Assembly (NCBI GenBank): GCA_951799445.1 | Contig: OX637290.1 | Location: 23,926,987 to 23,990,986 of the forward strand | Reading direction: 5' to 3' | DNA from: Pseudisothecium myosuroides | Lineage: Eukaryota > Streptophyta > Bryopsida > Hypnales > Lembophyllaceae | DNA: 64,000 bases | Shown: piece after piece, positions 3,734 to 62,300 of the stretch | Position numbering within the stretch: position 1 is the first letter of the stretch | How the letters are laid out: each line of letters opens with the position of its first letter | Notes under the pieces: model-generated | The model's database searches: none | What the model was told of the DNA's origin: nothing | The model's input: the letters and a program-made list of their open reading frames with translations, nothing else | Translations under genes and position numbers: made by a program

Positions 3734-4439
3734 TATTTTTCTGAGTGTTGATTTTCTGATTCATCACTTCTGAGGGAATGTAAAATCTTATATTCTAGAT
3801 TAGCTCATTTTTTGAAAGTAAAGCATAGTGGAATTTTTTTAGCCAGGTGATATGGAAGAGTTTATTACAGGCCTAAGGCCCTTTCTGGCTATAGGTCTTG
3901 ATACAGATGCAGTGTTGGAATCTCTGATTACGAGAGGTCTAATGACTGACTGACCCGTTACAGCGGACTGGTGAATGTTTTTTTTCTAAGCGGTATGTTT
4001 CGAAGGGGTTCAATTTAGATGGGTGTGACTGCCATTCTGCCAGCAGGAGTTTTGATCTGTCCGTATGAGACTTCTATGCTCATAGAGTCTTGGGTTGTAA
4101 CGGACTTGCGAGAATTTTATGTTGCAGTTAGTGAAGCTGCATGAGACTCTAAGTGAGGCGCTGATGCAGAAAGAGCTGTTTCGGTTTGTGGAATGGATTG
4201 AAAGTGCTTTTTGAAAGGTTGTCCCATGCTTGGTTTGGGTGTGAGTTGTGTGTTTTCCAAAAAAAAGAAGTTCCACTAGGTTTCTAGTATGCTTTCTAGA
4301 ACAATTTCACCATTAGAATTAGTGTGTTTCAATTACATCTTAGAGCCACTAACAATTTAGTCTTTCCTTCAATTTCATACCTGCTATTGCTTATCAATTT
4401 CTAAAAGAATAAAAGTTGTTTTGAAGTTGTTTTTGTAGA
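3734..4439. other. 3' flank of the DUF1664 gene, no further gene seen
   Basis: Probable 3' UTR and downstream sequence. AT-rich stretches near 3780-3840 could hold polyadenylation signals. Nothing else was recognised. Confidence 0.4.
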
Positions 4440-4800
4440 TTCTCAACTCAATTTGTCAATATTAAAAATAAAAAAATTCATTATCAGTAGTGCAAAAAAA
4501 TTCAGTTCAAAGATTCAAAGTCTTATTATCAAGTCACACAAATGCAAACAAACTTGTTTTCTTCACTTTAAATGCAAATTTCTTGCACTCCATGAGGCTG
4601 CAGCGAGGGCTGAAGTTTCTAAAATTTCTTCCTCACATTCTCTACAATAGTAAAAGATCCTATGATTAAATATGTGTAAAAGACAATTTTTAAAGATTTT
4701 TACTCTTTACAATAGAAATGACAATTTTGAGTGTATTCTGATGAAAATATAGCCTTAAAACCCTTAAGACTTAAAGTGACTCAAAGTATGTAAATTTGAG
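4440..4800. repeat. Relic related to the TTAA-flanked MITE family
   Basis: This block matches 6845-7180, the right part of the complete element at 6256-7184. Shared text includes CTCTCAACTCAATT, CACTTTAAATGCAAAT and GATCCTAT followed by a T-rich tract. It lacks a clear left end. About 43 bases at its right end recur inverted at about 5430-5480. Confidence 0.55.
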
Positions 4801-6255: not shown

Positions 6256-7184
6256 TTAATCCCTAAAGGACTGTTGTTCCTTTGGTGGACAAATGCGATT
6301 TTGGGCAGGTACTTACGGGCTAAATTTTTGTTGTGATTGTTTGAATTGTTTTTTGAAGATAGACAAACTGATAAGCTTTGTGGGAATATCATTTTTTCAC
6401 AATCGGTGCCCGGGAACAACAATTATGACCAAATAAGCTCAAAACAAGGGACGGGGGGCAACCCGAGCAGCAAAAACAAATTTGCAAAAATTTGAATTAT
6501 TTTTTTAAATATTTTTTCTCATAGATTATATTTTTGTCTATCTAGAAAACTTTGATTCATTTCATTTGGATTTGTTATGAGAAAGTTATAGACATTCTTG
6601 TTTTGGGGGCAATTAGAGCATCTTCTTGAAAAAAATAACTTGTAGGATTCATTCTAAATGCAATTTTTCAAATTTCTCAAAAAAAATTTGCATGGTTTAG
6701 TTTACTTGCTAGAACAATCTCACCATTGGGATTAGTGCATTTTAATTCTATTTAAAATATATGAATATTTTAGATTTTCCTTCTATCTTGTACCTACTTC
6801 TACTTAATAATTTTTTTAAGAATGATAATTAAGCTTTTTTGAATTTCTTTTTCTTTCCCTAGACTCTCAACTCAATTCTCCACTATAAAGATTTAAAGCT
6901 CAAAACGCTGTAGTGCAAAAATTTTAAGTTAAAAATGTTCAAATTCAAAAAATTTGTCTCGCAAAGTGTTGAAAAACTTGTTTTTTCCACTTTAAATGCA
7001 AATATCTTGCAATCTGTGAGGTCAAAAATTTTGAAATTTTTCCCACACTTTTTTATACTAGTCAAGTGTAAGATCCTATAGTTAGATGTGAATTTTTTTT
7101 TTTTTTTTTTTTACTCTTTGCTATAGAAATGGCAGTTTTCAGTGTTTTTTGGTAGAGAAAAGGCCTCGGTCCTTTCAGGGTTAA
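6256..7184. mobile_element. Complete TTAA-flanked (piggyBac-type) MITE, element A
   Basis: The element is bounded by TTAA at 6256-6259 and at 7181-7184. Its ends are TCCCTAAAGGAC on the left and GGTCCTTTCAGGG on the right, an imperfect inverted pair. TTAA duplication and ends starting with CCC are the hallmark of piggyBac transposons. The interior is AT-rich and non-coding, with a T tract near 7088-7111. The left half recurs at 53131-53560 and the right half at 4440-4800. Its length of about 921 bp inside the TTAAs is close to that of elements B and E. Confidence 0.8.
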
Positions 7185-9911: not shown

Positions 9912-10303
9912 TTAACCCCTGAAGGAAAAAGCTGCGTTTTTGGGCAACATATCAATTTTGGGCAGCTCACTAGCTCACTATGAATGGAGTATTTATTTAT
10001 TTTCTTTGCACAACATGTGTCCGAGGAGTACATTTAAGGCTCAACAATTTTCATAACTTTTGACTAAATAGTTAAAAACAGTTATTGTATAATATGTAAT
10101 TTTCATTGAACTTTGGACAGCCTGGGCAACTCAAAAAACTTCTTTAAAAATTACTTTAAAAAAATAAAAAAAATAGAAATTGGTTCTTTAGATTTATATA
10201 TACTTGGAAAGCTTTGAATCATTCAATTTTGACTAATGAGATGAAAGTTATGAGGAGTTTTAGTTTGCAGGTAGGTATGGAGTCTCTAAAAAACATATCA
10301 TTA
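9912..10303. mobile_element. Truncated TTAA-type MITE, element D
   Basis: The left end TTAA followed by CCCCTGAAGG (from 9912) matches the ends of the other TTAA elements. The interior matches 54060-54400, for example GGGCAACAT..ATTTTGGGCAGCTCACT, CACAACATGTG and TTTTCATAACTTTTGACTA. Similarity stops where the third Emigrant-type MITE begins, so the right end is missing. Confidence 0.7.
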
Positions 10304-10490
10304 CAATAGAACTTCTATAAAGAGTTGGGCTAGGAATAGACTGACACATCACATTAGAAAAGTTAATTACATTAGGAAAAGTCATTTGCATTCATGACGT
10401 TTGTATGCAAGTTAGTCTGGGACCGGCAATCAATATTACTTTAGAAAGGTTTATTACTTTAAAGAGGGTTGCTTGTTAAAAGTTCTACTG
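10304..10490. mobile_element. pogo/Emigrant-type MITE, copy 3
   Basis: 187 bp with termini CAATAGAACTTCTATAA and AGTTCTACTG, flanked by TA at 10302-10303 and 10491-10492. The internal sequence has diverged from the other two copies, so this insertion is probably older or belongs to a subfamily. Confidence 0.8.
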
Positions 10491-17628: not shown

Positions 17629-19199
17629 TTTGAGAAAAAGTCAGTACAATACCAACATGTTTTCAAAATTCATCATGGAGAAGGCATTAAGCAATTATTT
17701 AGATAAAATTTTGAAAAAATTACTAATAAATTTGTAAAAATCAAGTAGCTACTTATGTTCTTTCAAAATTATGATATGAGTTAAAACCTTCTTGTATATA
17801 TTGCGGAGTCAAATTATAAATTTTGAAAGTGAAGCCACTATTAATTTAGTTCATGAATAATCTTCAAATTTGTTTAGAATTTGAATTGAAGATTTAAAGT
17901 TTGAAGTGTATTTTGCAAATTTTTTTAATTATATTTTTAATTAAACTTTTGTAATAGAAAAAAGAACAAAAATTGTGTATTTTGATTTCAAGCATAATTA
18001 CATATGTTTCAACGTAAAATTTTCAAAAGACTCTAATGTACATATAGCGAGACATATAATTTCACAAGTCCAATACATTTATAATTATAATTATAATCTA
18101 TTAAAATATATATTAGAATTATTAAAGTAATTAATGTTACATCAAATGCAATTTCAATGAGTAAATTAATTTGCATAAAGAGACATCAGATTTTATTATA
18201 AATCACAACTAACGAAAGAATTACTTAGTATAAAGATTTTTTCATACTTTCAAATATGTTAATTTAACTCAAATTTGGGTGGTGTAAACTTAACAATTGG
18301 TGTAATGAACAACTTTCAAATTTTAGTTTTCTAATTTTATTTTGTATTATGGTTGTTGTTTTGTTTTCTATAAAAGCATTAGAAAATTTATGCGAGTTAG
18401 AATTTTTTTCTCAAGTATACTTCTACTCGTATGGAATAAAATAGGTATACTATGTAAATAAAATTTTCTTTGAAAAGGAAAAATATTTTTGTCTTCAACA
18501 TTCAAACTCACAATAGTGCGTCAATTAAAATTAAATAGATAAATGTATTCGTAGAGGCCGACCTGTCCTCCTGCATTTTCAGAGCGTTCCCTCGCGTTCC
18601 CTTAGTTTCTAAGGCTAGTTCCCGTTCCCACCCTTGTAAGCGAGGGTCCAGACTGCAGTGCAGCTTCCTGGTTTCACATTTGACCTAGAAGTCATAGTAT
18701 GCAAGGATTTTGTGGTTAGCATCTAAATTGTAGAAATAAAATACCCAGTCATGAATAGAATGTGCTAAAATTGAACAAGTAGTAGAACTTCTTTTATAGA
18801 GAAATAGTGATTAGCATTCTTTTTACACATGAAAAATTTCTTAGTTTTGGAATTATTCTTGAAGTTTTACATATAATTTTTCAATAATACACATAGTTAT
18901 TCGTATTATTTTTACATGTTAAAACTTTCTTTGTGAAAACGTTCTTGAAATTTGACATATAATATATTTCTTAATGCCACATGATTTTGTTTGGAAGAAA
19001 AGGTCATCCAAAATTATGACATGCATGGCATGAAAGGCACTCACATTCATATACGTTGAATCACAATAGATTTTCATGGTATCTTTAAAAGCACCCCAAA
19101 TGCCAGCACATGAATTTATTGCCACATGAGGGACAATATGTTTTTGGACACTTCATTAGTTGGGAGTCATTATTGTAGATAATGCAAGTACCACTCATA
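17629..19199. other. AT-rich DNA, no gene recognised
   Basis: Mostly AT-rich. A GC-rich island at about 18545-18660 with repeated GTTCCC words may be a fragment of the 243-bp MITE family seen at 24881, which has similar GGGAAC words. No ends were found. Confidence 0.35.
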
Positions 19200-20760
19200 A
19201 AAGAACTTGTTGGATAACAAATTTTGCGGCCTTGCACTTGATTTGATAAGCGTGTTCTCGAGCTCTAATTTTGCATAAGAGTCTTACGTAATTGAGTTTG
19301 AAACTACAAATGTGTCACTGGTGAGCGTGAAGGGTCCCTCTTCTTACACTTGTGTAGGTATATAATGTACATATTGATGATTGTCGTATTGATCAGGAAA
19401 AAAAATTACCCGGTGCTACCACTTGTGGGACTAGGTTTGGCAAGTGTAAGATGCTTGGAGCTAATTCGCCACATCGACGTCTCTCGTATGCATTGTGTAT
19501 TAAAGGTGAATTGGCAACTTGTGAATGTTTTTACGCGTTGCACCATCATAACGAGGTACCGAGGCCACTGGAAACTCACAAGAAAATTGCAGTGGTACTA
19601 TGTGATAGAAATAATCAATACGGACCTCTTGTCCTTCCATACTATAGCACAAATAGACCTGGACTTATACATGCGCCATTCAAGAGAGCCTTGTGTAGTC
19701 TTTGCAAATTACTTTGTGTTCTTCAATACCAATGACAAACCAATTGTGTTTGCCTAAGCTGCCCATGTCGCATATACTCCTTTTTTCAATAATTCTTTGA
19801 AAAGTGGTATGCTAGAGAAAAAAATATTCATGGCTATCACATGACCTCGGCCTCTATTGCAAACCAGCAAACACAAAACCACCTTGTGTGCTAGTCTTGG
19901 TTGTCCATGTGGTACTACTGCCTCATTTGCTAGTGCCAAATCTTTACTGCAGTAAACTTCAAAGCTTGATACAAATTTTGAAACCAAGTCTGCAAGACAC
20001 CAATTTTTTATTTCCCATTTTTGCAGCTTCTGAAGCATATATAGTCTCGCATGACAATATGTGCCTTTGAATTTGATCATCATCTCATTGATGGTACAGG
20101 ACTTCCCAAGCTTCCACGCTCGTTGAAAGTTGTGTCTTATATCGTTTATCAACCACCTCAGCTGCCCCATTTTATCATAACCCGGTAGGGCCTTGTTTTA
20201 CACATACTTTGTTGAATTTGTGAGATGAAAGCACTTCGTTAGTAACATGAAACGAGCTTGGAAAAGAAGACCGGATATTGTAGAACAATGGAATATGGAC
20301 CCTAATTTTTGCCAATACGTTTTTATATTTGGTTGCCATTTCATCCCCATATACAGAGTAATATCACTAAAAACTTACAACTCCTTTACGGTGCGAGGTG
20401 TTCAAGATACACCGCCTTCGGTATTTCTATGCTCATCAACAATAGTGACATATTGATTAGTCTTTGTGACAATATCACGCAATACATTGAAGGATCAAAA
20501 CACGAGAAATAATTGCATAAATGTAGGAAATATTGCCAATGAACATCGGAAGAAAGTACACCAATGAAAGGTATCGGCTCAGGCTCATAAGTTAAAAAGT
20601 CTTGGTTTCAAGACTCTTCTTGATAAATATATTTGATAATTCTATAGTTAGCTATTTCTAACTCATTGTCATAATTTTCTTCATCACTGAAAAGCAATTC
20701 AATATCATTGCCGCTATCATAATCCAAACAAGCGTTGGAAAGCCTCGCTCCTCAACTACT
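19200..20760 (-). pseudogene. Decayed piggyBac-type transposase
   Basis: Minus-strand translation gives the DDE_Tnp_1_7 (piggyBac) fold in order. An acidic N-terminus with DYDSGNDIELLFSDEE lies near 20640-20740, then LYMGMKWQPNIKTYW near 20350. The block INEMMIKFKG (about 20070-20100) comes next, followed by KWEIKNWCLADL, FEVYCSKDLALANEAV, HVIAMNIFFSSIPLFKELLKKGVYAT (the 138-residue ORF ending at 19754) and, near 19480, YTMHTRDVDVAN-stop-LQASY. SHKW-stop-HRVIFF and TTIINMYIIYL close it. In intact enzymes the INE and MNIFF positions carry the catalytic Asp; here both read Asn. Several stops and frameshifts are present. No TTAA-CCC ends were found around it, so limits are approximate. Confidence 0.85.
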
Positions 20761-21377
20761 GGAACCAACTACAAATTCACAATCACCGGCAAGGACGTCA
20801 TCATACAACTTTCAAGAACAAAGACCTACCTGGCCTCCATCTATTTCACCATGTGCTAGAGCACCAAGGTTTTGAGGAAGGCAAGTCTAGTAAATTTTTG
20901 TTAGTTATTGAAAGCGAAAGAGGGAGTAAAAAAACCCCAAAAAACCAGAAAGCTCTGAACACTGCAAATGTGAGCACATTTTGTCTAACCAAACTGAACT
21001 CAAGAATTCAATTTCATGAAGTCTTTGTCATAACTAGCAATATAATGTCTTCATGTATGAAAATCAATGAATATTCACTGAGGATCATATGATTCCGTTG
21101 ATGCCAAAAGAAAAAAGTTATTTCTGTACTATGGACATTGAAGAAAGCAGTAAAATGGAAATGGAAAGAGGATTACATTGTAAGGCTGGTCAACTCTTTT
21201 TTAAAAAAAAATACTGGCAAGGTTTATTTCAGCAAAGAACGCTACATTTGGATATTGTATGTAGAATTAACGAAAGATCAAAGCATTTCTATGGGATATG
21301 TTCTAAATTTTTTTTTCCGTAGTTCTACTTAATCCATAGTTTCCATCTACATGTACAAGAATTCTTAGTGATTAATT
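20761..21377. other. Flank of the piggyBac relic
   Basis: Possibly the 5' part of the old transposon. Overlapping short ORFs at 20853-21332 show no family features. No TTAA terminus with the CCCTAAAGG-type end was found here. Confidence 0.3.
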
Positions 21378-22468
21378 TTAGAGGTCCACATGCAAAATAA
21401 TTTACGGTAATTTATATTAGAATTGCAGATTCATAATAATTCATGATAATTTATATTTGAGTTAATAATTCCAGCTTCAGAATAATTCATAATTGAGGTC
21501 CACTTTCATAGTCAATCATATTTTAGTTTCACATCCCTAATAATTCATATTAGAGCTCCACATTCATGGTAATTCATATAAGAGGTCCACATCCCTAATA
21601 ATTCATATTAGAGCTCCACATTCATGGTAATTCATATAAGAGGTCCACATCCCTAATAATTCATATTAGAGCTCCACATTCATGGTAATTCATATAAGAG
21701 GTCCACATCCCTAATAATGCATATAAGAGGTCCATGTTCATAGTAATTCATATTTTAGGTCCACATGCATAATAATTCATATTCTAATCCTACTTTTGAA
21801 GTAATTTAATTTTGAGTCCCACATTCATAGTAATTCATGTACATTCTCCACATTCATAGTAATTCAATTTTCAGTTTCACATTCACAGTAATTCATATTT
21901 GAGGTCCACATTCATGGTAATTCGTATATGTCTTCCATATTCAAAGTACTCCATATTCTTCTTCCATATTCTTCTTCCACATTCAAAGTAATTCATATTC
22001 TTCTTCCACATTCAAAATAATGCATAATCTTCTTCCACATTCATAGTTATTTATATTTGAATTCAACATTTTTAGTCATTTATATTTGTGTCCCGCATTC
22101 AAAGTAATTGAAATTTGAGTTCCACATTCAAAATAATTCATATTTGAGGTCCACATTTGAAGTAATTCATATTAGTCTTTTATATTCAAAGTAATTCAAA
22201 TTTGAATTTGACATTTATAGTAAATCATAGTAGAGGTTCACATTCAAAGTAATTTGATTTTGAGATCCTCATTCATAGTCAATTATAGTTCTCTTCCACA
22301 TTTGCAGTGATTCATTTTAGAAGTCCGCATGCATAGTAATTCATATTCGTCTTCGACGTTTACAGGGATTGGTCTTTTAGTTTCACATTCATATTAATTC
22401 ATATTTTAGGTCCATAGGTGAAGTAAAATGTATTTGACTTCTACATTCATTGTAATTCACATATGAGG
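21378..22468. repeat. Degenerate minisatellite, about 29-bp unit with 58-bp higher-order repeat
   Basis: About 1.1 kb built from variants of GTCCACATTCATAGTAATTCATATTTGAG. In 21553-21720 the unit is organised as a 58-bp dimer: GAGCTCCACATTCATGG recurs at 21553, 21611 and 21669, alternating with AGAGGTCCACATCCCTAATA. Elsewhere units have diverged. No coding potential is evident. Confidence 0.9.
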
Positions 22469-24880
22469 TGAAGAAAAAAATGCAGGTCTCGTTTATTTTC
22501 ATAAAAGAACAAGTGTGTACAAACCAAAGAGTTTTCTTCTTTTTTCCTCCTTCAACCACGTAGACAAAAACACAGTAGTAGTTTCAGTTCTCTCTTTGTC
22601 CAACCCATAGACAAATGCATTTGGATATTTTATTTTATTTTCATATAAATACTTTGTAAAATGCGCAAAGAGTTATTTTGTTTATTCCTTCAAGCACATG
22701 GAGAAATTTTTATTTTTGTTTTTTGTTTTTCCTTCAAATACATGAATAACTACACTAGGGCTTCTTTTCTTTTCTTTTCTTTTTCTTTCTTCCAATACAT
22801 GGACAAGTATACAAAGAATTTTATTTTTTATTTTATTTTCATCGAAGTCATGGAAATCATAAGAGGATTTTCTTAATCAATGAAGCACTATTCAAAGTTG
22901 GAGGACATGCACTGGACTTGCGACTCTCAATCACCAGGAAGAGGAGAAGGCGAATTGGCGAAGTAAACAGGGAGAGGAATTCACCTGGCCAATCGAAAGG
23001 ACCGGATGGACTTGCGGATGTCCTGCCTAGGTGCTGCCGGTCTTTTCGTCAACTCCTCTTCCGCTAGACTTGTAGATAGCCGGTTGCTTGCCCCAACCAG
23101 CCGGTCACCTGATTCGCTGTCGTCGCCTCTGTTTTCGCAGCTCTAACTGTGTCGACAACCGACGCACTGCAACCATGACTTTGATGTGGGGATTGGAATG
23201 CATTCGTGCGATTCAACAACATCTCCAGGGGCCAGATCAATTCCTCTAATGATTGCGTCTCCGCATCTACATATTGACATTCGTAGAAGTCGTCCTTGCA
23301 TAACTTCTCTTCAAAAGAATGAAGACCTGATTGCACTAGTTCCTGAATTTCAAAGAAATTTGGATCCGCATCACCAATTTCTTTATCGGAAGTGTGGTCC
23401 ATGAAATCAGTATGAACTTTGGATAGTAGAGGTACATATAAAGGAATCGGATAACTACTGTACGGTGATGATGGTTGAGCTGATTTTGAATTTGCGGTGG
23501 TCAATGCATGCAACAGATCCCTATTGTTGGAAGCCTCGCAACCTAGTAGGCGGTAGCTTTGCCTGATAGAGAGGCCGTCCCATGCTAGCTAAAAAGAAAC
23601 ATCTTCCAATGTCGATATGGCAACATTGAATTTGAAAATTTGTCTACTGCATGTTGAACTTGGGAATGTCGAATTACAAGAAATGTTTATTTTGTTATTG
23701 TCACAATCTGTTCTCTTGAGGTGGGGCATGAGTCTTGCACTCACTACTCATGTATCGCATGTAATTCTCCTCTGTTCTACTATTGCACTAGTTGAAGCAT
23801 TAAATCGCACAATGTTCACAAGCGAAAATAGAAAGAAGTAAAGTCATGAACACCAACTACAATCATGTCAATGACATGAATGATGTTGTTGTGGACTCTC
23901 ACACTCTGAAATCAAAATTTGTAGACCATCGAAATTTAAATGCGCACAGTGGGAAACAAATCGGCAAATGAGGTTGGAAGCGACAGCATGCAACATGTAC
24001 TACAATAATGACACACTATTCACGATTGGTATAAATCAATTCAATCCACTTGTCATGCACATACATGAGGTGCTTTTTTAGACCTCAATTTTATAGACTT
24101 TGGAATATGAGTATTCTTTGGGTATTAGCCTTTCCATTCAATGCTTGGAAGTCCAGTACAAGCTGCAATTTGCAAAAAAGGCTTCAATTCCAGCATTTAA
24201 TAGGAATTTTTTCACACTTCTTACTTGTTACAAAAAGAATTCTACCTTCTACACTAAGCACATGTGCACTTCTAAATCCCAAGAAAATTGCATATTCAAG
24301 GCAAGCTGTTGATAAATTTGAGTATTGTAATAAGTACCTCCGCCTTCCTTCAATTCATGAACGAAGGCGCTCTTCAATCAGCAGGTCGCGGCGCAGGACT
24401 TGCGCTGCAGCAGCGCAAGCGCGGTGCCTGCATTGGGTGCCCCAACCACCCTGCTGCAAACTCCGTCGTCGTCCAACAATTGCCAACACTCTACGCCGTT
24501 CGCCCTCCTTGCCGCAACTCCTTGCACAAGCTGTCAAGTCCCCTCTCGACAGCTCCCACAGCGCCAATCAGAGATGGTTGCAATTTGCCCCCTACCCCTG
24601 CAAGTTATTAGATATTTTGCCCATACTTATTGCCCTACCATTAGTCAATTCACTGTGAGTAACCACATGCCTTGCCCGACTTGCCCCTCCTCCTCCACTT
24701 TGTACAAAAAATGCCATAACTTCTTGCTGGATGGTCCAAATCAAGAAAAAATTTGACCCTTGTTTACCTCTTTCAATTCTTCAGCTACAAAAAAAGTTTC
24801 AAAAAATGTTAAAAACACAAATGCTCATAGATACATTCCGAAATTGCATTTGTCCTCCAAAAAAACAACGGTCCTTTCGA
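22469..24880. other. Unassigned region with one 149-codon minus ORF
   Basis: 22500-22870 is T-rich with loosely repeated CAATACATGGACAA-like words. An ORF at 23064-23513 (-) has a plausible acidic and serine-rich composition, but I recognise no domain and cannot call it a gene. 24350-24650 is an unusually GC-rich island that reads open in several frames and may be a captured gene fragment. Nothing here could be assembled into a transcript model. Confidence 0.3.
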
Positions 24881-25123
24881 CATTAGAAGAGATTTTGGGG
24901 CATTAGAGGGCCATTTCAGGCCCATTCCCCATTTTGTTCTTGATGCAATAAAGAAATGTCGGGCGGCTGTCAGAACCCTCATTATCAAAAAATAAATAAA
25001 AAAATAAAAAAATATAACGTGGCACTCTTTAGACCACGTCGGACTACGCGTATGGCAGAGTTCCCAGGCTGGGAACGGCTTGGGAACTCGCAATATTCTA
25101 CACCCCTCAAATCTCTTCTAATG
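24881..25123. mobile_element. 243-bp MITE, copy 1 (CATTAGAAGAGAT ends)
   Basis: Begins CATTAGAAGAGATTTTGGGG and ends CCCCTCAAATCTCTTCTAATG, an inverted pair of about 20 bp. The interior has a GGGCCATTTCAGGCCC-type palindrome and GGGAAC words. Its length is identical to copy 2 at 25534-25776. No target duplication longer than 2 bp is visible. Confidence 0.8.
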
Positions 25124-28510: not shown

Positions 28511-30217
28511 CCTGGGTCAAATTTATTTCATGGAAGTTAATTTGTAATATTAAGTTTATTGTTGGAGAATTTTCATATATTTTTATTGAGTTTAATAAAT
28601 TTTTTGTCAAGTTTTTAAATTGATGATATAGAATATGGTACTAGATAATATGTATATCCGAGTCTAGTCTAATGACTATATCAATCATGCCTAGTTTTTG
28701 TCTCATGGAAGCTGGACTTTTGTATAATAGGTGACATTGTGTAGATAGTTTTGTTAGGGTGCTCTATTTTTGCAAGTTCCAAGTTGAATGAGGGAATAAT
28801 TTGAATATCTAGGTATGGATATGTCTCATTTTAATTAAGGACAAGGAGACTTTGACCTCGGTAGTTAATATTGTAGGATTAAACGTGTACTTTAAAAGCT
28901 TTGAGAGCCATTTTTGGTTTATGTAAATACCTAATTACTGTGCATTCAAGAACACCAACATCCATCCTTGCCCATTTACAAAATTTGTGAATTTGTTAAA
29001 TTGAGGTACATTGGATGGAGGTAATATCATTGAATAGAGAGTTCAAGTCATCAATATAGACAATTGAGTTAATGGTTGTTTATGAGGTGTAAAATATGTA
29101 TCCTTAATTGTTCTAGCTTAGCCAATGGAGTAGTGGTTCTAGAAAGATAATGAAGAAATAATGACATTCTTCTTGCATGTTTCTCGAAGAATTGAAATGG
29201 TTTTGGTTTGTTCAAAGTGTTTTCTAGAAAAAAATTTGTTGTAGAATGTTGGACTATTGTAGATAGGGATAAAATTGGACTAAAGGTGGACAATGGTTAT
29301 GCATACATTAGCTTATAAACGATACGGTAGACGGTTTGTGTCCAATTAATGACATAGAATCCTTCTATATAGGACAAAAGTGCAGTTATTCATCCTCAAA
29401 ATTTTGTTGTAAAAAGAGGAGGTCTTCTACAATAGTTTAACTTCCAATAAGTATTTTTTTTTTTTTTAAGGCAATGATTCTTATAATATTTGAAGGCATG
29501 ATTCTACAATTACGAGTCTGTTTTTTAATCCATTAAGATTTGGTTGACCACTTTCTAGTTGAAATTGACAAAAGGGTGAATGCAAGAAACACTTGCCGAT
29601 TTTGTTGCGTTTTTACAGTACTCATGGTTTTTCTTCTGGAGTACTATAAAATTAGAAAAATAATTTTTAAAAAACAAAAAAAATATGGCTAACGTATACA
29701 CCTTTAAAATGAAGGTAACCACCAAAGGAAATGCATAGAAAAATTCTTTAAGCTAGAGAACTAGAAAAGTGCCAAATCTTAGGAAAATGGATATTTTGAT
29801 GTATAAATTAGTTAAAAATAGGAAACAAAAGAAAATAATATTTTTATATGTTTCAAAATGCAAGTAGAAAGAAGCACACTTTGTGGACTTCCACACCATA
29901 TACAATTAATTATTTTTAGAATTCCTTTAGACAGTAGCTACAAGTCTACTAGAAGACCATACCCTCTAGATTTCAGCTCAAAATTCGTTTTTTTGGATAC
30001 TAAGTAGTACTAAAAACCTCCAAATTGGCAAGTGTGACATAAAATTGGGGGCTATTTTTGGACAATAAACTATTTTTGAAAATTACCAAAAAATTAGGTA
30101 AGGTGTATAATAGTCATGAATACCTTGCATATAAATCTTGAGTCATTTGGAGCCAGAATGCAAAAGTTATAACCAAAAAACAAATCAAAGCGCAAGGTTT
30201 GACGCAAAATAATAAGT
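28511..30217. other. Repeat-derived AT-rich DNA
   Basis: 29330-29430 is an inverted copy of about 1030-1110, and 29577-29790 an inverted copy of about 11190-11417. About 29980-30215 resembles 27260-27480. No gene was recognised. Confidence 0.45.
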
Positions 30218-30772
30218 AACTGTAGGATCTTATAGTACACTGATTTGAGAAGATGTGGAAAAAATTTCAAAAATTTCCACCATGTGGATTCCAAGATATT
30301 AGTGTTTGAATTGACAAAAATCTTTTTTTTGTCCCTACAAAAAAACGGGCAGCTGCACTTCACAAGGTCACATTTGTATGAAAAAATATTGAAAATGGTG
30401 GTTATCCTTTGGATTCATTCTTCAAGGCAATTAAATTGACTACATGCTTGAAAATGTTCAAATCATTTGGATTTGTACAACGTATAGGAAAAAAATAGTC
30501 AGTAGAAAGAAGTAGAAAATGATTCAAAATACAAAATTTTCAAGAATTTACTTATGGAATTGAAAAATGCCAATCCCAATGTTGTAATGTTGTAATAAAA
30601 AATCTGCATCCAATGTTTGTTTGTTTTTTTCAAAAATATTGAAAGTTGAGTTAAATAAAGGACTTCAAAGTTTATTATAGAGTAGAGATTCCATAACTAC
30701 AGTCAAACTAAAACTCCTCATAACTTTCATCTCATTAATCAAAATGAAATGATTCAAAGTTTTCCACGTATA

Positions 30773-30850
<78 letters not shown>

Positions 30851-31126
30851 ACCACTTTCAAATTTTTGTTTTTGAAAAAAGTGATTTTAAGGAATTTTTT
30901 TGAGTTACTTGGGCTGCCAGCCAAATGTGGAAAATTACATATCATGCAATAACTTTTTAACCATGTAGTCAAAAGTTAAGAAATGTGTTGGATCTTAAAG
31001 CTACTCTTCAGGCACATCTTGTGTGAAAATTTCAAAGAAAAAAAATAAAAAATTTGTTTGTAGTGAGCTGCCCAAAATTGCTACGTTGCCAAAAAACGGT
31101 GTTTCAATTGGTCCTTCAGGGATTAA
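30218..31126. mobile_element. TTAA-type MITE, element C, left end missing
   Basis: Matches element B (31690-32500) in the same orientation from GTAGGATCTTATAG onward. The right end is GGTCCTTCAGGGA followed by TTAA at 31123-31126. Its left end is replaced by another repeat. It holds a long (TA)n microsatellite at about 30769-30850 where element B has only ATACATATAAATC. Confidence 0.75.
30769..30850. repeat. (TA)n microsatellite
   Basis: About 80 bp of almost pure TA dinucleotide with one TG interruption near the start. It lies inside TTAA element C. The surrounding open frame is fortuitous. Confidence 0.95.
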
Positions 31127-31584: not shown

Positions 31585-32524
31585 TTAACCCCTAAAGGTT
31601 TTAGACTATGTTTTCACCAAAAATGCTCCCAAACTGCCATTTCTAATACTAGTGCCAAATTTTAGAAAAAAAACATTTTTGGACACATGTAACCATAGGA
31701 TCTTATAGTAAACTTATTTGAAAAGATGTGGAAAAAATTTCAGAATTTTCCACTATGTGGATTGCAAGATAATAGCGTTTGAATTGACAAAAACCCTTTT
31801 TTTGTCCCTGCGAAAAAACGGGCAGCTGCCCTTCACAAGGTCACATTTGTATGAAAAAATGTCCAAAATGGTGGTTACTTCTTGGATTCATTCTTCAAGG
31901 CAAGTTGGCTACATACTTGAAAATTTCAGATCATTTGGAATTGTACAACATATAGGAAAAAATAGTAAGTAGGAAGAGGTAGAGAATGATTCAAAACACT
32001 AAATTGTTGAGTATTTATTTATGGAATTGAAAAATGCCAATCCCAACGGTTGTAATGTTTTAATAAACAATCTACACCCTATTTTTTTATTTTTTTTCAA
32101 AAATATTGAAAATTGAGTTAAATAAAGGACTTCAAAGTTTATTTTAGAGTAGAGATTCCATAATTATTCTCGAACTAAGACTCCTCATAACTTTTGACTC
32201 ATTGATTGGAATGGAATGATTCAAAGCTTCCCGCATACATATAAATCTAAAGAAACAATTTCAAATCTTTATTTTTCAAAAAAGTGATTTTTAAAGAAGT
32301 TTTTTTGCTGCCCGGGCTGCCTGCCGGCCAATGAAAATGACATATCATGCAATAACTTTTTAACCATGTAGTCAAAAGTTATGAAAATTGTTGGGCTTTA
32401 AAGCTACTCTTTGGGAAAATGTTGTGTGAAAATTTCAAAGGAAAAAAATAAAAACTCCGCTCGTATTGAGCTGCCGAAAAAAGCTATATTCTCAAAAAAG
32501 CATGTTCATTGCTTTAGGGGTTAA
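31585..32524. mobile_element. Complete TTAA-flanked (piggyBac-type) MITE, element B
   Basis: Bounded by TTAA at 31585-31588 and 32521-32524. The ends are CCCCTAAAGG and GCTTTAGGGG, nine of ten bases inverted-complementary. Inside the TTAAs it is 932 bp, AT-rich and non-coding. Direct homology to C and inverted homology to E at 54043-54975 show that B is a well-bounded family reference. Its ends match the CCC-starting, TTAA-targeting signature of piggyBac. Confidence 0.88.
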
Positions 32525-34799: not shown

Positions 34800-36659
34800 A
34801 TGGCAAGGATATGGAGCTTTTTCTGGACAATAGCAGTTTGCTTGTGTCTCCAAGCCATCTGCTGTGGAGTTGTACGGGCAGGTACGTGAGATTGACCCCA
34901 TACAGATTATGCATCGTACTGGGATTCTGAGACGTACCCTAGCTTTTTGTTGCCGTACTTCGATTTTACACGTAATTATACTTCGTTTGGAAATTCAAGT
35001 TTATTTGTCATTTTGACTGAGCCTGCAGATCCTGTGAGATTTACCTATGGCGACGGGCCGACTGGACCAGCGCACTGGGGAAACTTGAACGTTAATTGGA
35101 CAACTTGCAAAACAGGCAAACAACAATCGCCCATAAGGATCACTCCCGATATTATGGTCATCGACCCCGAATTGGGTGAACTTGACGCTTCTTACTCTAT
35201 AGAGCCAGTTCCTGCGAACATTTCTATCAATGTGGGATACGCCGTTGAGGTGAGTGATGCCCTTCCCGCCTCAAAAATCCATAAATTTTGAGCTCAGAAG
35301 AAGAGCATTTCTTCGGTAGCCTGCCACGCACTCGATCCTCGTTCTCCAGTCCCAACTGAATATTTGTGAGCCCGTTTGTGAGCAGGTCAATGTGGACTCG
35401 AATGTGGGACTTTTGAAGATCAAAGGCGTGAGCTACCGACCTGCTCAGTTCCATTTCCACATGGGCAGCGAACACAAGATTCTGGGCCACAGCTTTCCGA
35501 TGGAGCTGCACCAAGTGTACGTGAGTGAAGAAGACGCAAACGTTCGTGCAGTGATCGCCTGGCTCTTCGTCAAGGGAGCGGAAAACAAATTCCTGGCCCA
35601 GGTAATAGCAAATACCATATAATCACCATTAGGAATGATAAATTATATTAGCCGGGAGATTAGCCCCGGGGCTAAACAACGTCAATTCCAAAAAATTTAA
35701 TTCCTTAAAAATGGCGCAGTTGACCCCCAAGAAAGGAAGGAAAACGGAATGATTTAGGGAGCCGGAGGGGATGGAGCTGGAAATCCTATCCTAGCTTAGA
35801 GGTGCACGATGTTGTGAATGAAGACAATTTGCGCATCTATCGGCACAACAAGCTAATGAAAATGTCAAAATGGCTTCTGGAATACCACCAAGTTGAAGGA
35901 ATTGACGAAAACCAATTTTTGAGTCTTCTTTGAAATAATTTAGTTCAATCAGGTGGCCGTGATTAGTTGCAATGAACTAATGAATGATGTGATGTGTCAT
36001 GGAACCAGTTCGATGGCAAGCTGCCGACTCAAAGCAGTTCTCCCACCGAGTTCATGCTGGATCCTATTGATTTGCCCACGTTTCAGAAAAGCTACGCCAG
36101 ATATCAAGGGTCTCTCACCACGCCACCTTGCACGGAGAATGTCACCTGGACTATCATGTTGTGGAATGTAAGCTCCTGCTACCTATTCCCCATTTCCATT
36201 TCTTCACTAATTATGAGTTTTTCCTTGAAAATTTTCAGGAGTACACCTGCATATCTGAGGGCCAATAATGGTGCTCACAACATGCTTGTGTTAGAGCATG
36301 ATCATTCTCACTTATGCTGTGAAATTAGCATGATTGTACACCAACTATTATATATTATGAAAAATTATGAATGTTTGACTAACCTCTACAAGTGTGGTAT
36401 GCGTGTGCAGTTTCCAACCATTTCAGAACAGCAGATTCAGCTATTCAAGAAAGCAATGCCGGTGTGTGCAACCTCCTCTGTCATGCATTTGGTGCCTGCT
36501 AATTTGCTAATGAAACAAGAGAATAATTGGCAGTGATCTAGCATTTTGTTGTTTCTGATCTGTGGCATTTATGCTTGTGGACTGCAGATTAAGAATGTTA
36601 GACCCTCGTCTCCAAGCAATGGACGCAAATTTCGAATTAACGTATATGGTTCCGTGTAG
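34800..36659 (+). CDS. Alpha-type carbonic anhydrase, secreted
   Basis: Six exons (34800-34881, 35029-35249, 35386-35601, 36009-36167, 36411-36461, 36588-36659) join without phase breaks to 266 residues. The enzyme interconverts carbon dioxide and bicarbonate. A hydrophobic, cysteine-rich signal peptide occupies about residues 1-27. Zinc ligands are His124, His126 (in QFHFHMGSEH) and His143 (in MELHQVY), followed by the family signature GSLTTPPCTE. A conserved cysteine pair (WTTCKTG and PPCTE) and N-glycosylation sequons (NWT, NIS, NVT) fit passage through the secretory route. Exon 4 is the least certain: the acceptor AACCAG at 36008 keeps phase but trims the usual tryptophan-asparagine part of the region, so a slightly different junction is possible. 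The C-terminus ends at the expected place with PSNGRKFRINVYGSV. Confidence 0.9.
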
Positions 36660-43970: not shown

Positions 43971-44050
43971 GATGAAAAGTGGGATGAGAAAAGTGGGATG
44001 AGAAAAGTGGGATGAGAAAAGTGGGATGAGAAAAGTGGGATGAAAAGATG
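43971..44050. repeat. 15-bp minisatellite
   Basis: Four exact copies of GATGAGAAAAGTGGG start at 43983, 43998, 44013 and 44028, with a shortened GATGAAAAGTGGG before them. The serine-, histidine- and phenylalanine-rich ORFs on the minus strand are products of this repeat. Confidence 0.95.
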
Positions 44051-44140
44051 ATTGTTTTCATGACATCGGTTTGTGATAGGGGTCGTGACCATCTGTACTT
44101 AATATAATAGATTAATGCAGTCGGACTCTATGTCAAGTAG

Positions 44141-44335
44141 AACCTATTTCACTTTCCCAGACTTTCTGTTTGTATTGATTGTTGTAATGCTTCACACCTC
44201 AAGGAAACCTATTTCACTTTCCCAGACTTTCTGTTTGTATTGATTGTTGTAATGCTTCACACCTCAAGGAAACCTATTTCACTTTCCCAGACTTTCTGTT
44301 TGTATTGATTGTTGTAATGCTTCACACCTCAAGGA
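44141..44335. repeat. Three exact 65-bp tandem repeats
   Basis: The unit beginning AACCTATTTCACTTTCCCAG starts at 44141, 44206 and 44271 and a fourth copy begins but breaks off after 44336. The three units appear identical, so the array is young or homogenised. Confidence 0.97.
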
Positions 44336-45188
44336 AACCTATTTGTGACTCCATAAGAAACCTTGTCAAGCAATTGTAAACCATTGCCAAGAAATTGCCA
44401 TTCATTTTTGGAGACGGGTTCTGGTTAGCAATTAGATTTTGCCCACGTAATTGGACATTATGAATCTTTCATCCAAATTCAATCTATTCTATTCATGAAA
44501 TCTAATTTCCTAGCAATAGTTTAAGTTAGTATGTTCCAACTTGTTCCAAAATCCTACAATGCAAGCCTTTATGATTCAACCCCTAAAGGTACAGAGTGTT
44601 CTCTAGAATAGACAATTTGAAAAAAATCATTATAAAGCAGTACTCCCTTTGTCTCAAAATATTACTAGTGTTTCCTTGTATTTTACAAAGGAAACACTGG
44701 TATTATTTTGAGAAAGTGAGGGAGTATTTGGAAGAATATTTTGGAATTGATATACAAATATAAGTTGTAAACTTTGAGTTTTAGATTCCATTTGTGCAGT
44801 TAGTTTCACCAATTCTATCACCAACGTTTTCTTATATCAATTTTTATATCAACATACGTTTTTATAAATTTTGAAAGGAAAATTTCAAAATTCCTTCTAA
44901 TAAAATTCAATTACAAGGAAAATACTATCATTTTTTGAATAAAATTTGTTGGAATGGATTTGAAATGAGGTTCTCTTTGACATGGGGATTTTTTGAATTT
45001 TTTTTTTTTTTAATGCATTTGTTTCAGAGAAGCTCAATCCACATTTGTCGCAGGAATTTCGATGAGAGCAGGCTTGTGATGTTTCAGCTGTCGGTGTCCG
45101 AAAAAAAAGTTAAAACGAAACTTAGGATGTGAAAAAGTAAAACTGTTAAATACATCCGAAGGAGAGAGTAAAAAAATTTAGAAAATCG
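44336..45188. other. Intergenic DNA with TTAA-family end and Stowaway MITE
   Basis: At about 44576 ATTCAACCCCTAAAGGTACAG resembles the left end of the TTAA elements with a mutated TTAA; no further homology is visible before the Stowaway-like insertion. The rest is AT-rich without genes. Confidence 0.45.
44643..44724. mobile_element. Stowaway-like MITE, 82 bp
   Basis: Begins CTCCCTTTGTCTCAAAATATTACTAG and ends with the near complement, TTTTGAGAAAGTGAGGGAG. TA flanks both sides (44641-44642 and 44725-44726). The terminus resembles the plant Stowaway end CTCCCTCCGTCCCAAAATAA, of Tc1/mariner type. Confidence 0.88.
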
Positions 45189-45261
45189 CACTCCCGGTGG
45201 GACTCGAACCCACAATCCCCTGATTAGAAGTCAGATGCCTTATCCATTAGGCCACGGGAGC
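45189..45261 (-). tRNA. tRNA-Arg (anticodon UCU)
   Basis: Reverse complement reads from GCTCCCG to CGGGAGT plus discriminator G, a seven-pair acceptor stem whose first pair is G-U. The D arm is GGCCTAATGGATAAGGC, the anticodon stem-loop CTGACTTCTAATCAG with TCT centred in the loop, and the T arm GTGGGTTCGAGTCCCAC. Internal A and B box promoters are intact. There is no intron. Four Ts follow within a few bases (complement of 45182-45185), a Pol III terminator. It lies alone between repeats and the WD40 gene. Confidence 0.97.
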
Positions 45262-53130: not shown

Positions 53131-53560
53131 CTAATCTAGCCCCTAAAGGACCGTTGACCCTTCAGGGGACAAATGCAATTTTGGGCAGGTACCTACAAGC
53201 TGAATTTTTGTCATGATTTTTTGAATTTTTTTTGAAGATAGAAAAACTAATAAGCTTTGTGGGTATATAATTTTTTTCACAATCGATGCCCAGGAACAAT
53301 AGTTATGATCAAATAAGCTCAAAACAAGAGACGGGGGCCAACCTGGGTAGCAAAAAAAAATTTGCAAAAATTTGAAATTTTTTTTTGTATATTTTTTTCT
53401 CATAGATTATATTTTTGTCTATCTGGAAAGCTTTGATTCATTTCATTGAATTTATTATGAGAAAGTTATGGACAATCTTGTTTTTTGGGCAGTAAGAGCA
53501 TCTTCTTGAAAAAAAATAACTTGTAGGATTCATTTCTAAATGCAATTTCAAAATAGTGTG
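53131..53560. mobile_element. TTAA-type MITE fragment, left half of the element-A type
   Basis: Matches 6260-6660 closely: CCCCTAAAGGACCGTTG at the left end, ACAAATGCAATTTTGGGCAGGTAC, AAGCTTTGTGGG and CAAATAAGCTCAAAACAAG. The preceding bases read CTAG and not TTAA. Homology stops near 53550, so the right half is lost. Confidence 0.7.
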
Positions 53561-53862: not shown

Positions 53863-54997
53863 CACTACAAGAGAAAGGGGTGTTTAAAATATAGTCCTAG
53901 TAGTATAGTCCTATAAGTAATGATCTTTTAGGAGATTATTAGTATAATTTTACTGAAAACACATGATTGTATTTCTAGTAAAATTTCACTAAAAATCTTC
54001 TTAAAGGTCATTACTTATAGGACTATACTACTAGGACTATACTTAATTTCTAAATGCCCACACACCGTTTTTTGGCAACATGGTGATTTTGGGTGGTTCA
54101 CTACAAATGGAGTTTCAATTTTTTTCCTTTAAAATTTTCACACAACATGTGCCCCAAGAGTAGCTTTAAGGCCCAACAATTTTCATAACTTTTGACTACA
54201 TGGTTAAAAAGTTATTGCATAATATGTAATTTTCATTGCTTGGAGAGCAGCTCAAAAAATTCTTGAAAAATCACTTTTTTCAAAAATAAAAACTTGAAAT
54301 TGGTTTTCTATTTTTATATGTACATGGAAAGCTTTGAATCATTCCATTTTGATCAATGAGATGAAAATTATGAAGAGTTTTAGTTTGCGGGCAGTTATGT
54401 TTTCTCTACCCTAAAATAAACTTTGAAGTCCTTTATTTTACTAAATTTTCAACATTTTGGAAAAAAATAAAATCTTAGGATGTGGATTTTTTATTATAAC
54501 ATTACAACCATTGGGATTGGCATTTTTCAATTCCATAACTCAATTCTTAACAATTTAGTATTTTGAATCATTATCTACTTCTTTCTACTTATTATTTTTT
54601 CCTACATGTTATACAATTCCAAATTATCTACAATTTTCAAGCATGTAGCCAACTTGCCTTGAAGAATGAATTCAAAGAAGCAACAATATTCATTGCACAT
54701 TTTTTTCGTACAAATGTGACCTTGTGAAGTGCAACTGCCTTGTTTTTCACAAGGTAAAAAAAGGATTTTTGTCAAATTCAAACACTAATATCTTACAATC
54801 CACGGAGTGAAAAATTTTGAAATTTTTTCCACATCTTCTCAACCTAACTTACTACAAGATCCTATGATTATTTATGACCAAAAATGTGTTTTCTCTAAAA
54901 TTTGGTACTTGTACTAGAAATAGCAGTTTTGGAGCGGTTTTGGTGACAACATAGTGAAAAACATTTAAGGGTTAAGATGCCCCTTTCTCTTGTAGTG
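53863..54997. mobile_element. Foldback MITE with CACTACAAGAGAAAGGGG ends, split by a TTAA element
   Basis: The left end CACTACAAGAGAAAGGGG is exactly inverted at the right as CCCCTTTCTCTTGTAGTG. Arms TATAGTCCTAGTAGTATAGTCC and its complement fold together. Without the 54043-54975 insertion this is an element of about 200 bp. The flanks GATATAGT and ACCATATC continue the inverted repeat imperfectly, so the true outer limit and target duplication are uncertain. Confidence 0.85.
54043..54975. mobile_element. TTAA-flanked (piggyBac-type) MITE, element E, nested
   Basis: TTAA at 54043-54046 and 54972-54975 bounds 925 bp. Ends are TTTCTAAATG and CATTTAAGGG, decayed relative to CCCCTAAAGG. The interior is an inverted copy of element B: CATGTGCCCCAAGAGTAGC, CCATTGGGATTGGCATTTTTC and ACAAATGTGACCTTGTGAAG. 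It sits in the right arm of the surrounding foldback MITE. Removing the insert plus one TTAA makes that arm pair with the left arm, where the matching place reads TTTAAAATATAG. Confidence 0.9.
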
Positions 54998-59373: not shown

Positions 59374-62300
59374 TCAAACTCGAAAACTATAGAATCTACT
59401 TCGGGACCTTCCTTGTGATTGAGAAAGAGCTTTCAGGCGTGTTGATGGTGTGCGTGTAGGTCCTGCCTCATCACTCCCTTCATCAGAGCGCCAGCGACTG
59501 CCTCCATTCTCATCAGCCTCTGCATTCCTGATCCCACAAATCAAAAGACGATCTTCTCAGTAGATTACATCAGAGTTAATAATAAACTTCTCAGCATTTG
59601 CCCTTGGCTACAAAAAACTGCAGCTTGAAAGAACCATGGGGTAGCAAGCTGGGCTTGAGTCAACACTAGAAAATGTCAGAGAATGCAAGTGAACAGAGTT
59701 AAGATAAGAGAAAATTTCACATCAGATGAAACCTACTGAGCTGAAATCCAAATGAGCCGACAAAAAAGTACTGACCCTTTGGAGGACTCCCAAGGCAATA
59801 TGCCAGTGGACACGGGTCCGTTCTCAGCGTCAACGCCGGTAAAAGTGAAATCTCTTGATGCTTCCTTTTCTCCAGTCCTCTGCAACCAGGACCGGTCTGA
59901 TGGGTGTCGCTTCCCGTTAGATGGCCAGTTACTTGTTCCCTCCAGGTCCATTTCCATTGTATCATTCTCATCTGCATGCAACCCATCTGCCCGTAATCCA
60001 TTCTCCAGGGGAACAGGTGACCCATTGCCTAAATGGGCAATCCCATTCATTTTCACTGGCATCCGCTTCTCCACCCCACTTGCCCAAGAGCCTGGTCCTG
60101 CCGCATCCAATCCATCACCCCTTTGCACATCTCCAATGTCAATAGTAGTATAAAGAGATGGCTCCCTAGGTTGTTCAGCCTCGTACCGAAGGCGCCGCCC
60201 TTGCACGGGGCTTTCTCCCAGGGCAACAAACTCACGCGCTGGAGTAGGTCCATTGATTTTAGGGAAATTCATGTTTGAGAGGAGAGGAGAGGCAGGTGCA
60301 GGAGACCTCAGCCCTAAGCGTTCCTGTGCAAAAGAAGGCTGACTATAACCAGCCCAAGCAGAGGTGGATGGAAGATTGCTTTCTTCAAATGCCATGGATT
60401 CCCTCATCAGGTTTCCCCCAGCATGATCAAAGAGTGGCGAAGCTAAGGGAGGCAATCTATGTTCCTCCACGGCCAGAGTTGCTGGTTGCGGTGACTCCAA
60501 GTCACTTTCAACAGCACCGCGAGCCAGCTGCTGCTGGACCTCGGGTAGAAGCTCCATACATTTTTCCTGTGGACAATGGATCATCCTCAGAGTCTACTAA
60601 TTAAACATTAAGCAAAAGGCGAATTTGGTAGTACGAAACATAGACCAGCACAAACAGATACCAACAACTGCGATGGACAAAGAATACACTGGCCACCGAG
60701 CTCCAACTGTGATGCCTCACTAAGATTTACATTCCCCAATTTGTAAAAAAATGTATCCTTATCCCCAACAGAAGTATGAATTCACACAGCATATAGTCAG
60801 ACTCAAAGAGTTCTTGAAGACATTTAAAACTAGCACTTGAAAAACACTTACAACAATTCGACCCCTCTGTTCACTCGCCATGCGAACCCGAGAGAACTTT
60901 GCTTCATCAGTGCACCTTTCTCCCAACAAATCCTCAAGTTCGTTCAACCTTTTGTGCACTGCATGTGCTTCAATGTATCGACATCGCTGCAAATGACGAA
61001 CACCAATAATACAAAACGCGGTCAGCTGTTGAAGGGAGCACTCAAGATTCCAAATAGATTTGCACAAGAACAATAGTGACCGATTCCTGAAATCTGCTGA
61101 CATCACTCCACATCATATATAACCAGAAACATTTAACAACGAAATCTATAATCTCGAGAAGACTATAACAGCACCAGATCGTCGTCTGCTTTAAATACGA
61201 AAATAGTAAAGGACATTCATAAGGTTTTCAGTAAAATATTACAATTGGAATAACAGGAGGTCGAACGTTGGTCCCACTCATACCAAGAATATCTATAGCA
61301 ACCATACACAAAGGTCCTAGCCCTTAACTACTTGCACACCACCTTCTTCAAGGGCAATTTGGAAAATGGCCATGCAGCAGGCAGTGAGACGAGAACTGTA
61401 CCTGTAAATAGAAGACAACCAGAAGATTCCCAGCTGTGGATGACGGGTCTTGTCCAGCACGATCAAGTAAACACTTCCTCACGTACTTCTCCTCGTCTTT
61501 TCTCCATGGTAGAACTAGCATTTTGTCCAAAATGCTCATGCCTATACATATCCTGCAAACTTCGCTCACCAACACTTCCATACTGGATAAGCAATCACCC
61601 CCTTCCCGCTTAACACCATCGACGTAAGCTCTCTGGTATAAATAACCTTCAGTAAGAAGGCCACATTGAAGCCAGACTCTGACAGCTGTAAGAGCATCTG
61701 TAAGTGGAACAAGCCCTGCGGCTTGGCCATCGCGTCCACTGGCACGAAGGACAGCAAGTGCTGCCTGAGCCTTCTGGCGCTCAAGCAACACAGTGACTAC
61801 CTTTGGATGTGTGTTGTGACTAGAAATTTCCGGCAGTAGATGACACGCCTCCTGAAATCACAAAACCATGATTCTTAAAACGCATCGTCACTCCACATAG
61901 ATTCACCATACTCAATTCAATGAAGCGATAATCACAATCGGAAGTTAAAACCCCTGGGTCTACAATAAGTATGAAATAACCAAACCAAAAAAACGTTAAC
62001 AAACCTCAAGGGCGTGATCGCTGCTGTCATCAAGAAGGAAAAAAACAAGGGACTCCAGCATAAAATGTCTTGGAATATTGAAAGCGGCGACGTAGTCATC
62101 TACCACCTCTCTCCAACTCTCGTCAGGGAGGGCCCAATGACGATCAAATAAAAAGTAAAGAAACTGCAGTAGGGTTAAGGAATAACAGAAAATCATACGC
62201 ATGTTTACTCATCTAATCCCAAAAACATAATTGCAATCGTAGAATACAGAAGATGTCAGCATAATCCCAGTCTATGTGTCAATTACTTGCACCTCCACCA

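Follow-up and report, generated by a model that had tools for sequence, protein, structure and literature searches.

The stretch of DNA analysed here (the window) comprises 64,000 nucleotides of a moss, Pseudisothecium myosuroides, and occupies positions 23926987-23990986 of contig C4 in a 388-Mb assembly of 222 contigs. Genes of the window near the transposon relic described below encode DUF1664 and ELYS domains. Among named relatives the DUF1664 protein is closest to those of Ceratodon (62%) and Physcomitrium (59%); Sphagnum reaches 47% and other sequences up to 78%. The window also holds a tRNA gene, pieces of a carbonic anhydrase gene, tandem arrays, one long decayed element and a series of short ones (Table 1).

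Table 1. Features of the 64,000-nucleotide window
Feature	Position	Strand	Remarks
Relic of autonomous piggyBac element	18857..24886	-	blocks matching intact L029 and L030 in blastn; low boundary drawn where clear homology stops
Broken transposase coding region	19085..20838	-	14 in-frame stops in read-through; frame changes near 20550, 19600 and 19400
Decayed upstream coding exon (AWDGL block)	23064-23588	-	open there; preceded by a conserved AG acceptor
Eroded 5′ terminal inverted repeat	24862..24886	-	aligned to L030 and L029; intact form TTAACCCCTAAAGGACCGTTTGTCC in family C
Short-element fragment	4253..4756		up to 71% identical
Non-autonomous piggyBac-type element, 929 bp	6256..7184		near-complete, with TTAA on either side; 82-88% identity to the eight 0.93-kb elements fetched
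Fragment with one terminus-like end at 9912	9912..10306
Old short-element fragment	30216..30844		up to 63% identical; terminus-like site at 31110-31126 (-)
Older non-autonomous element, 940 bp	31585..32524		TTAA on either side; 58-62% identity to the fetched elements
Truncated short element	53137..53552	+	up to 88% identical
Old short-element fragment	54247..54954		up to 63% identical
Carbonic anhydrase gene pieces, eukaryotic-type	34896-36536	+	the second piece passes the cut-off, the first narrowly misses it
Near-perfect tandem arrays, 14-bp and 65-bp units	43974-44043 and 44133-44344
tRNA-Arg	45188-45261	-
ELYS-domain gene	59733-63066	-

Nine pieces of the relic were scanned against Pfam. 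A 147-residue minus-strand piece at 19757-20197(-) matched PF13843 (DDE_Tnp_1_7) with E = 3.1e-21 (76.5 bits; cut-off 22.4), and the adjoining part of the profile was recognised at 20201-20374(-) with E = 0.022, under the cut-off. The remaining seven pieces had no PF13843 match, and none of the nine matched any other transposase family. The initial annotation had seen a fossil piggyBac transposase of a plant at this place, with most of the landmarks in the expected order on the minus strand, and had proposed the DDE_Tnp_1_7 profile as a check; the profile match is significant, the relic does lie in plant nuclear DNA, and the order is as described, though in changing frames. In a three-frame translation, one frame carries an acidic N-terminus to ~20550, the second frame carries LYMG..YW, FKG, FEVY and FF-S-PLF-ELLKKG-YAT to ~19600, the third carries VDVAN and SHKW to ~19400, and a Cys-rich tail follows in the second frame again, to ~19085. 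The tail contains CPKTYCPSCGNKFMCW; like motifs were noted on reading the sequences of three copies elsewhere in the genome (L018, L029 and L030), and the Pfam family zf-Tnp_2 gave no match to L018 at E up to 1.

The first two catalytic aspartates of the relic have become Asn (INE, MNI) and the third is retained (VDVAN), so that two of the three are lost; intact relatives mostly have [IV]DE, MDN and VDVAD at these positions. The frames were joined by eye into one broken protein of 562 aa with an X at each of the 14 stops. With this read-through as query, 28 homologues were found, the best of which (P0001) shows 61% identity over 80% of the query (E = 1.4e-177). Judged by sequence, the match of the relic to piggyBac is far beyond chance.

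The homology blocks with L029 and L030 run from 24877 downwards at the 5′ end, then over ~23678-23203 in the upstream exon and over 20730-18857 in the transposase. The span first assigned to the relic, 19200-20760, is thus its transposase core, but not its full extent: because the blocks of the 5′ end, the upstream exon and the transposase all align with open relatives, the element is estimated from these alignments to have been originally ~6 kb or more in length, not 1.6 kb. The AWDGL block of the upstream exon is common to the relic, L018, L029 and L030, an AG acceptor precedes the exon in all four, and its pN/pS among L018, L029 and L030 is 0.38-0.48 over 121-124 codons. At the 5′ terminus the relic reads TAATGTCGAAAGGACCGTTG where family C, a further intact element, reads TTAACCCCTAAAGGACCGTTTG. 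This end was recognised only through comparison with intact copies; a search of the relic's surroundings alone for TTAA-flanked inverted repeats produced nothing convincing. At the other end, alignment and an ungapped scan did not find a 3′ terminus and TTAA pair (best ungapped match to the terminus, 10/17). Tail alignments scored 95 with L030 (highest of 20 shuffles, 72), 88 with L029 (highest of 20 shuffles, 80) and 170 with family C (shuffled maximum 217). These alignments are AT-rich and, with that 10/17 at best, were set aside, as was a weak tail alignment reaching ~17709. A minisatellite of ~29-bp units lies at 21371-22354, between the relic's upstream exon and its transposase.

Three intact copies agree with one another at 892 aligned columns, and at 145 of these the relic departs from them, in 75 cases (52%) by C>T or G>A; against two references, the figure is 129 of 246 changes. 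The corresponding shares in intact copies, obtained with slightly different reference pairs, are 33/166 for L029, 44/169 for L030 and 81/310 for family C. Such an excess is the pattern expected of methylated, silenced DNA.

A PF13843 profile search of the moss's own genome gave at least 116 further matches, on contigs C1 to C11, all 116 above the cut-off. These were the best 116 of 899 candidates, with the relic itself outside the scored set, and therefore stand for the better end of the population. Among them 73, counted from the listing, have no internal stop, and intact copies reach 287.5 bits. A genome search with P0001, in which the best 86 of 1107 candidates were scored, was also made. 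Two families are made up of near-identical copies: family A has five, of 5414-5416 bp, with a mean pairwise difference of 0.037% of sites, and family B has six, of 5632 bp, with a mean pairwise difference of 0.018%. Within each family every copy is on a different contig. All 11 have TTAA at both ends together with their family's short inverted repeat, which starts with CCC beside the TTAA and is perfect over 18 nt with TTAA in family A, and 88% matched over 17 nt in family B. The transposase frame is open over 1091 aa in all six copies of family B, and over 1056 aa in three of the five copies of family A (901 and 895 aa in the other two). L018 to L020 make up a third group, with 98-99% identity across 7.4 kb or more. 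The intact copies that had been proposed as the next thing to look for exist, in families A and B and as L029 and L030; the term 'fossil' suits the relic, which is dead, but says too little, since open and near-identical copies are present in the genome as well.

In families A and B the transposase frame (L013:2672-5842, L022:2576-5836) is overlapped by another open frame upstream of it, 257 aa long in A and 281 aa in B from stop to stop (L013:2365-3138 and L022:2314-3117). This upstream frame is weakly conserved (33% over 129 codons, pN/pS 0.73). A Gly/Arg-rich extension lies ahead of the transposase core in both families, and neither the upstream frame nor the extension received a Pfam name above the cut-off. 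The family C element (L031 + L018) is ~10.2 kb long, with further TTAACCCC-type ends and several stretches resembling short elements inside it, and looks from its sequence as if other elements had inserted into it.

The catalytic triad (D233, D322 and D440) is nearly invariant, at least 90% conserved, in a 29-row alignment of intact relatives. Between the transposases of three diverged open lineages pS is 0.77-0.84, which is saturated, and pN is 0.14-0.24; the lineages are therefore old and the protein has been kept under selection. A structure model of the L018 transposase (mean pLDDT 84.6) has piggyBac 6x67 as its top PDB match (E = 2.2e-26), followed by piggyBat 9c0f, and the intact protein is accordingly modelled with the RNase H-like fold of piggyBac. 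By sequence these two are the only solved relatives of L018 at E up to 0.001.

Protein hits numbered 39 (28 + 11), 31 of which entered a quick tree of 43 rows and 26 a careful tree of 37 rows; the latter leaves out P0013, P0027, P0071, P0072, P0073 and L016 and uses one fetched copy per family. The careful tree unites the relic, 10 genome copies and 13 database hits in a single clade (100/100); the other 13 hits, Bradysia, Hyalella and Mizuhopecten among them, fall outside it. All hits were collected for their similarity to the queries; the named outsiders are a few animals, no row is named as fungal or algal, and Trichoplusia ni is not represented. Within the clade the relic is placed with P0001 (97/89) and with L029 and L030 (100/99), the last two from the same genome as the relic. 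The quick tree shows the same division.

Unoccupied sites were sought at 15 flank joints. Spanning BLAST matches were obtained for five (L026, L011, L010 and L030m among them), four from sequence other than themselves and one from itself; the other 10 joints had no spanning BLAST match. For L026 there are two paralogous unoccupied sites with a single TTAA, identical at 115/128 and 112/128 positions through the joint, and these are direct evidence of insertion at TTAA. The pairing of L011 with L014 was rejected as an empty site for lack of a TTAA, and that of L010 because the match is its own local repeat. On the right of L021 and on the left of L037 the flanking TTAA is also that of another piggyBac-type terminus; neighbouring elements can thus abut and use one TTAA in common.

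The relic's subfamily has the terminus TTAACCCCTAAAGGACC, which occurs nine times in the window with up to three mismatches against 0.17 expected from 100 shuffles. Genome-wide, exact copies of it number 12,717 (control 0), and with as many as two mismatches allowed the count is 46,767 (control 62). Ten short elements were fetched; they were chosen for close + and - termini among the first 100 sites of the listing, which all lie on C1, so that the sample is non-random for length and likeness. Nine of the ten are 905-944 bp long, and eight of these nine are 81-97% identical to each other; the ninth (L039) is ~59-62% identical to the rest, over parts. The tenth (L041) is 603 bp long and has little in common with the others beyond the terminus. 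A MITE is recognised by lacking a transposase gene and having the ends of a transposase-bearing partner: the ends of eight of the ten match L029, L030 and family C, those of L039 match family C only, weakly, and those of L041 match by 27 nt only. Within the window 4523 bp match short elements, including 205 bp that are the relic's own end. If termini pair and the length of this non-random sample holds, there would be ~23,000 short elements in the genome, amounting to 22 Mb (5-6%). The ten fetched have a G+C content of 0.29-0.35, whereas that of the young families A and B is 0.49-0.51; decay of methylated copies may account for the difference. The terminal repeat of the short elements and of families B and C contains CCCTAAA, the plant telomere repeat unit; the likeness is probably chance.

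Two other origins of the relic have to be weighed. Its upstream and transposase exons together make a multi-exon gene, as in host genes, and some genome copies have long open frames, both of which would suit a decayed domesticated host gene derived from piggyBac, like the PGBD genes or ciliate PiggyMac. However, the same exon pair is found in terminus-flanked copies (L029, L030 and family C), and the relic itself combines a broken frame and an eroded terminus with membership of a large repeat family, so we consider domestication very improbable. We give slightly less credit still to contamination or a recent horizontal transfer out of an arthropod or a fungus, although piggyBac is best known from animals and the 13 database hits in the relic's clade have no host tie. 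The window lies inside a 35-Mb contig next to moss genes, the 100/100 clade of genome copies and relic stands apart from the Bradysia, Hyalella and Mizuhopecten hits, and the saturated synonymous sites between intact transposases of three lineages also speak against such an origin. A contaminant scaffold had been named in the initial annotation as what would overturn its reading, and fails in view of the moss neighbour genes and of related copies on C1 to C11. In our judgement it is close to certain that the region represents an autonomous DNA transposon of the piggyBac superfamily, now dead, that belongs to the moss. The relic is one dead member of a piggyBac population that has recently been mobile in this land plant and whose present mobility we infer.

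When whole, the relic would have been bounded by short inverted repeats like TTAACCCCTAAAGGACC; between them lay one or more upstream coding exons and a transposase exon encoding ~600 residues, with DDD at the active site. Functional relatives would move by cut and paste, their transposase binding the terminal repeats and cutting at the flanking TTAA, and insertion at a new TTAA would leave TTAA on both sides; this chemistry is assumed by analogy with the superfamily. The short elements, with related ends and without genes, presumably moved in trans. After its insertion the relic was probably silenced by cytosine methylation, and its decay seems to have been largely by C-to-T change, seen as the excess above, together with small indels.

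The nearest well-described systems are T. ni piggyBac (6x67/6x68) and Myotis piggyBat (9c0f), which have PF13843, TTAA at both ends and a short repeat starting with CCC, as in the moss. They are the best sequence and fold matches of L018, with which the IDE, DN and GVD positions align; identity in the structural alignment is ~19-22%. The moss elements differ from both in their extra upstream exon and in forming a separate clade, in a tree that holds no T. ni row. Comparison with other systems is with the available parts of the papers cited. The moss elements, at 5.4 to ~10 kb, are longer than T. ni piggyBac (2472 bp) and than bee PiggyBac-like elements (2.23-3.52 kb), which are alike in their TTAA duplications, short terminal repeats and transposase of ~580 aa (PMC10140906). 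Paramecium PiggyMac has protein extensions on a piggyBac core, as in the moss, but is a domesticated gene (PMC8086355), whereas the moss has a transposon with terminal repeats. Among land plants, the fern Ceratopteris also has a PiggyBac label, given to 1230 annotated pieces totalling 122 kb in a repeat table; unlike the moss data, the passage describes no transposase or ends (PMC6890710). Angiosperm PiggyBac-type MITEs are short and non-autonomous, like the short elements of the moss, and were assigned from terminal repeats, duplications and internal sequence (PMC10004981), whereas in the moss transposase-bearing relatives with related ends are present in the same genome. Despite the long elements, the extra exon and the clade of their own, we keep the moss elements as ordinary members of the piggyBac superfamily rather than a variant, since no decidable feature of the superfamily failed.

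The initial annotation had called piggyBac poorly documented in land plants. This broadly fits the literature, with exceptions: the fern table (PMC6890710), a survey in which PiggyBac is among the superfamilies present in all groups (PMC4438587) and a review that has it among angiosperm MITE superfamilies (PMC10004981), each as far as the available text goes. Plants are also named among piggyBac hosts, without detail in the parts available, in PMC10140906, PMC10813416 and PMC8086355, and with several papers naming plants as hosts we do not claim a first report. In the accessible text of a 2022 review of land-plant transposons six TIR superfamilies are given and the word piggyBac is absent (PMC9033089); that of a MITE survey from 2025, covering 207 plant genomes (four from bryophytes), gives five main superfamilies and one special group, with no piggyBac (PMC12550479), and the word is likewise missing from that of a further plant MITE paper (PMC12595863). 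As for moss genome papers, the available sections of PMC9631980 and PMC6723128 name no piggyBac superfamily among the repeats, and in those of PMC10619864 the word occurs as 'piggybacking'. Our literature search, with most subscription papers and preprints outside its scope, found no paper on moss piggyBac elements.

What raises the interest of the relic is the surrounding genome, with a piggyBac population that is old and diverse and seems to have been mobile recently, and with tens of thousands of termini. A wider reading is that mosses have their own old piggyBac clade, here still mobile and with ~20,000 short derivatives (perhaps 5% of the genome), an overlooked major plant superfamily whose elements exceed those described from animals in size and have an additional conserved coding exon ahead of the transposase. 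We see the case for and against this as evenly balanced, because one survey lists PiggyBac in all groups and because the clade was tested against few named hosts. If the near-identical copies are as young as they look, the moss has a native and possibly working plant piggyBac; active piggyBac in land plants would then be directly testable, and moss repeat libraries would need revision.
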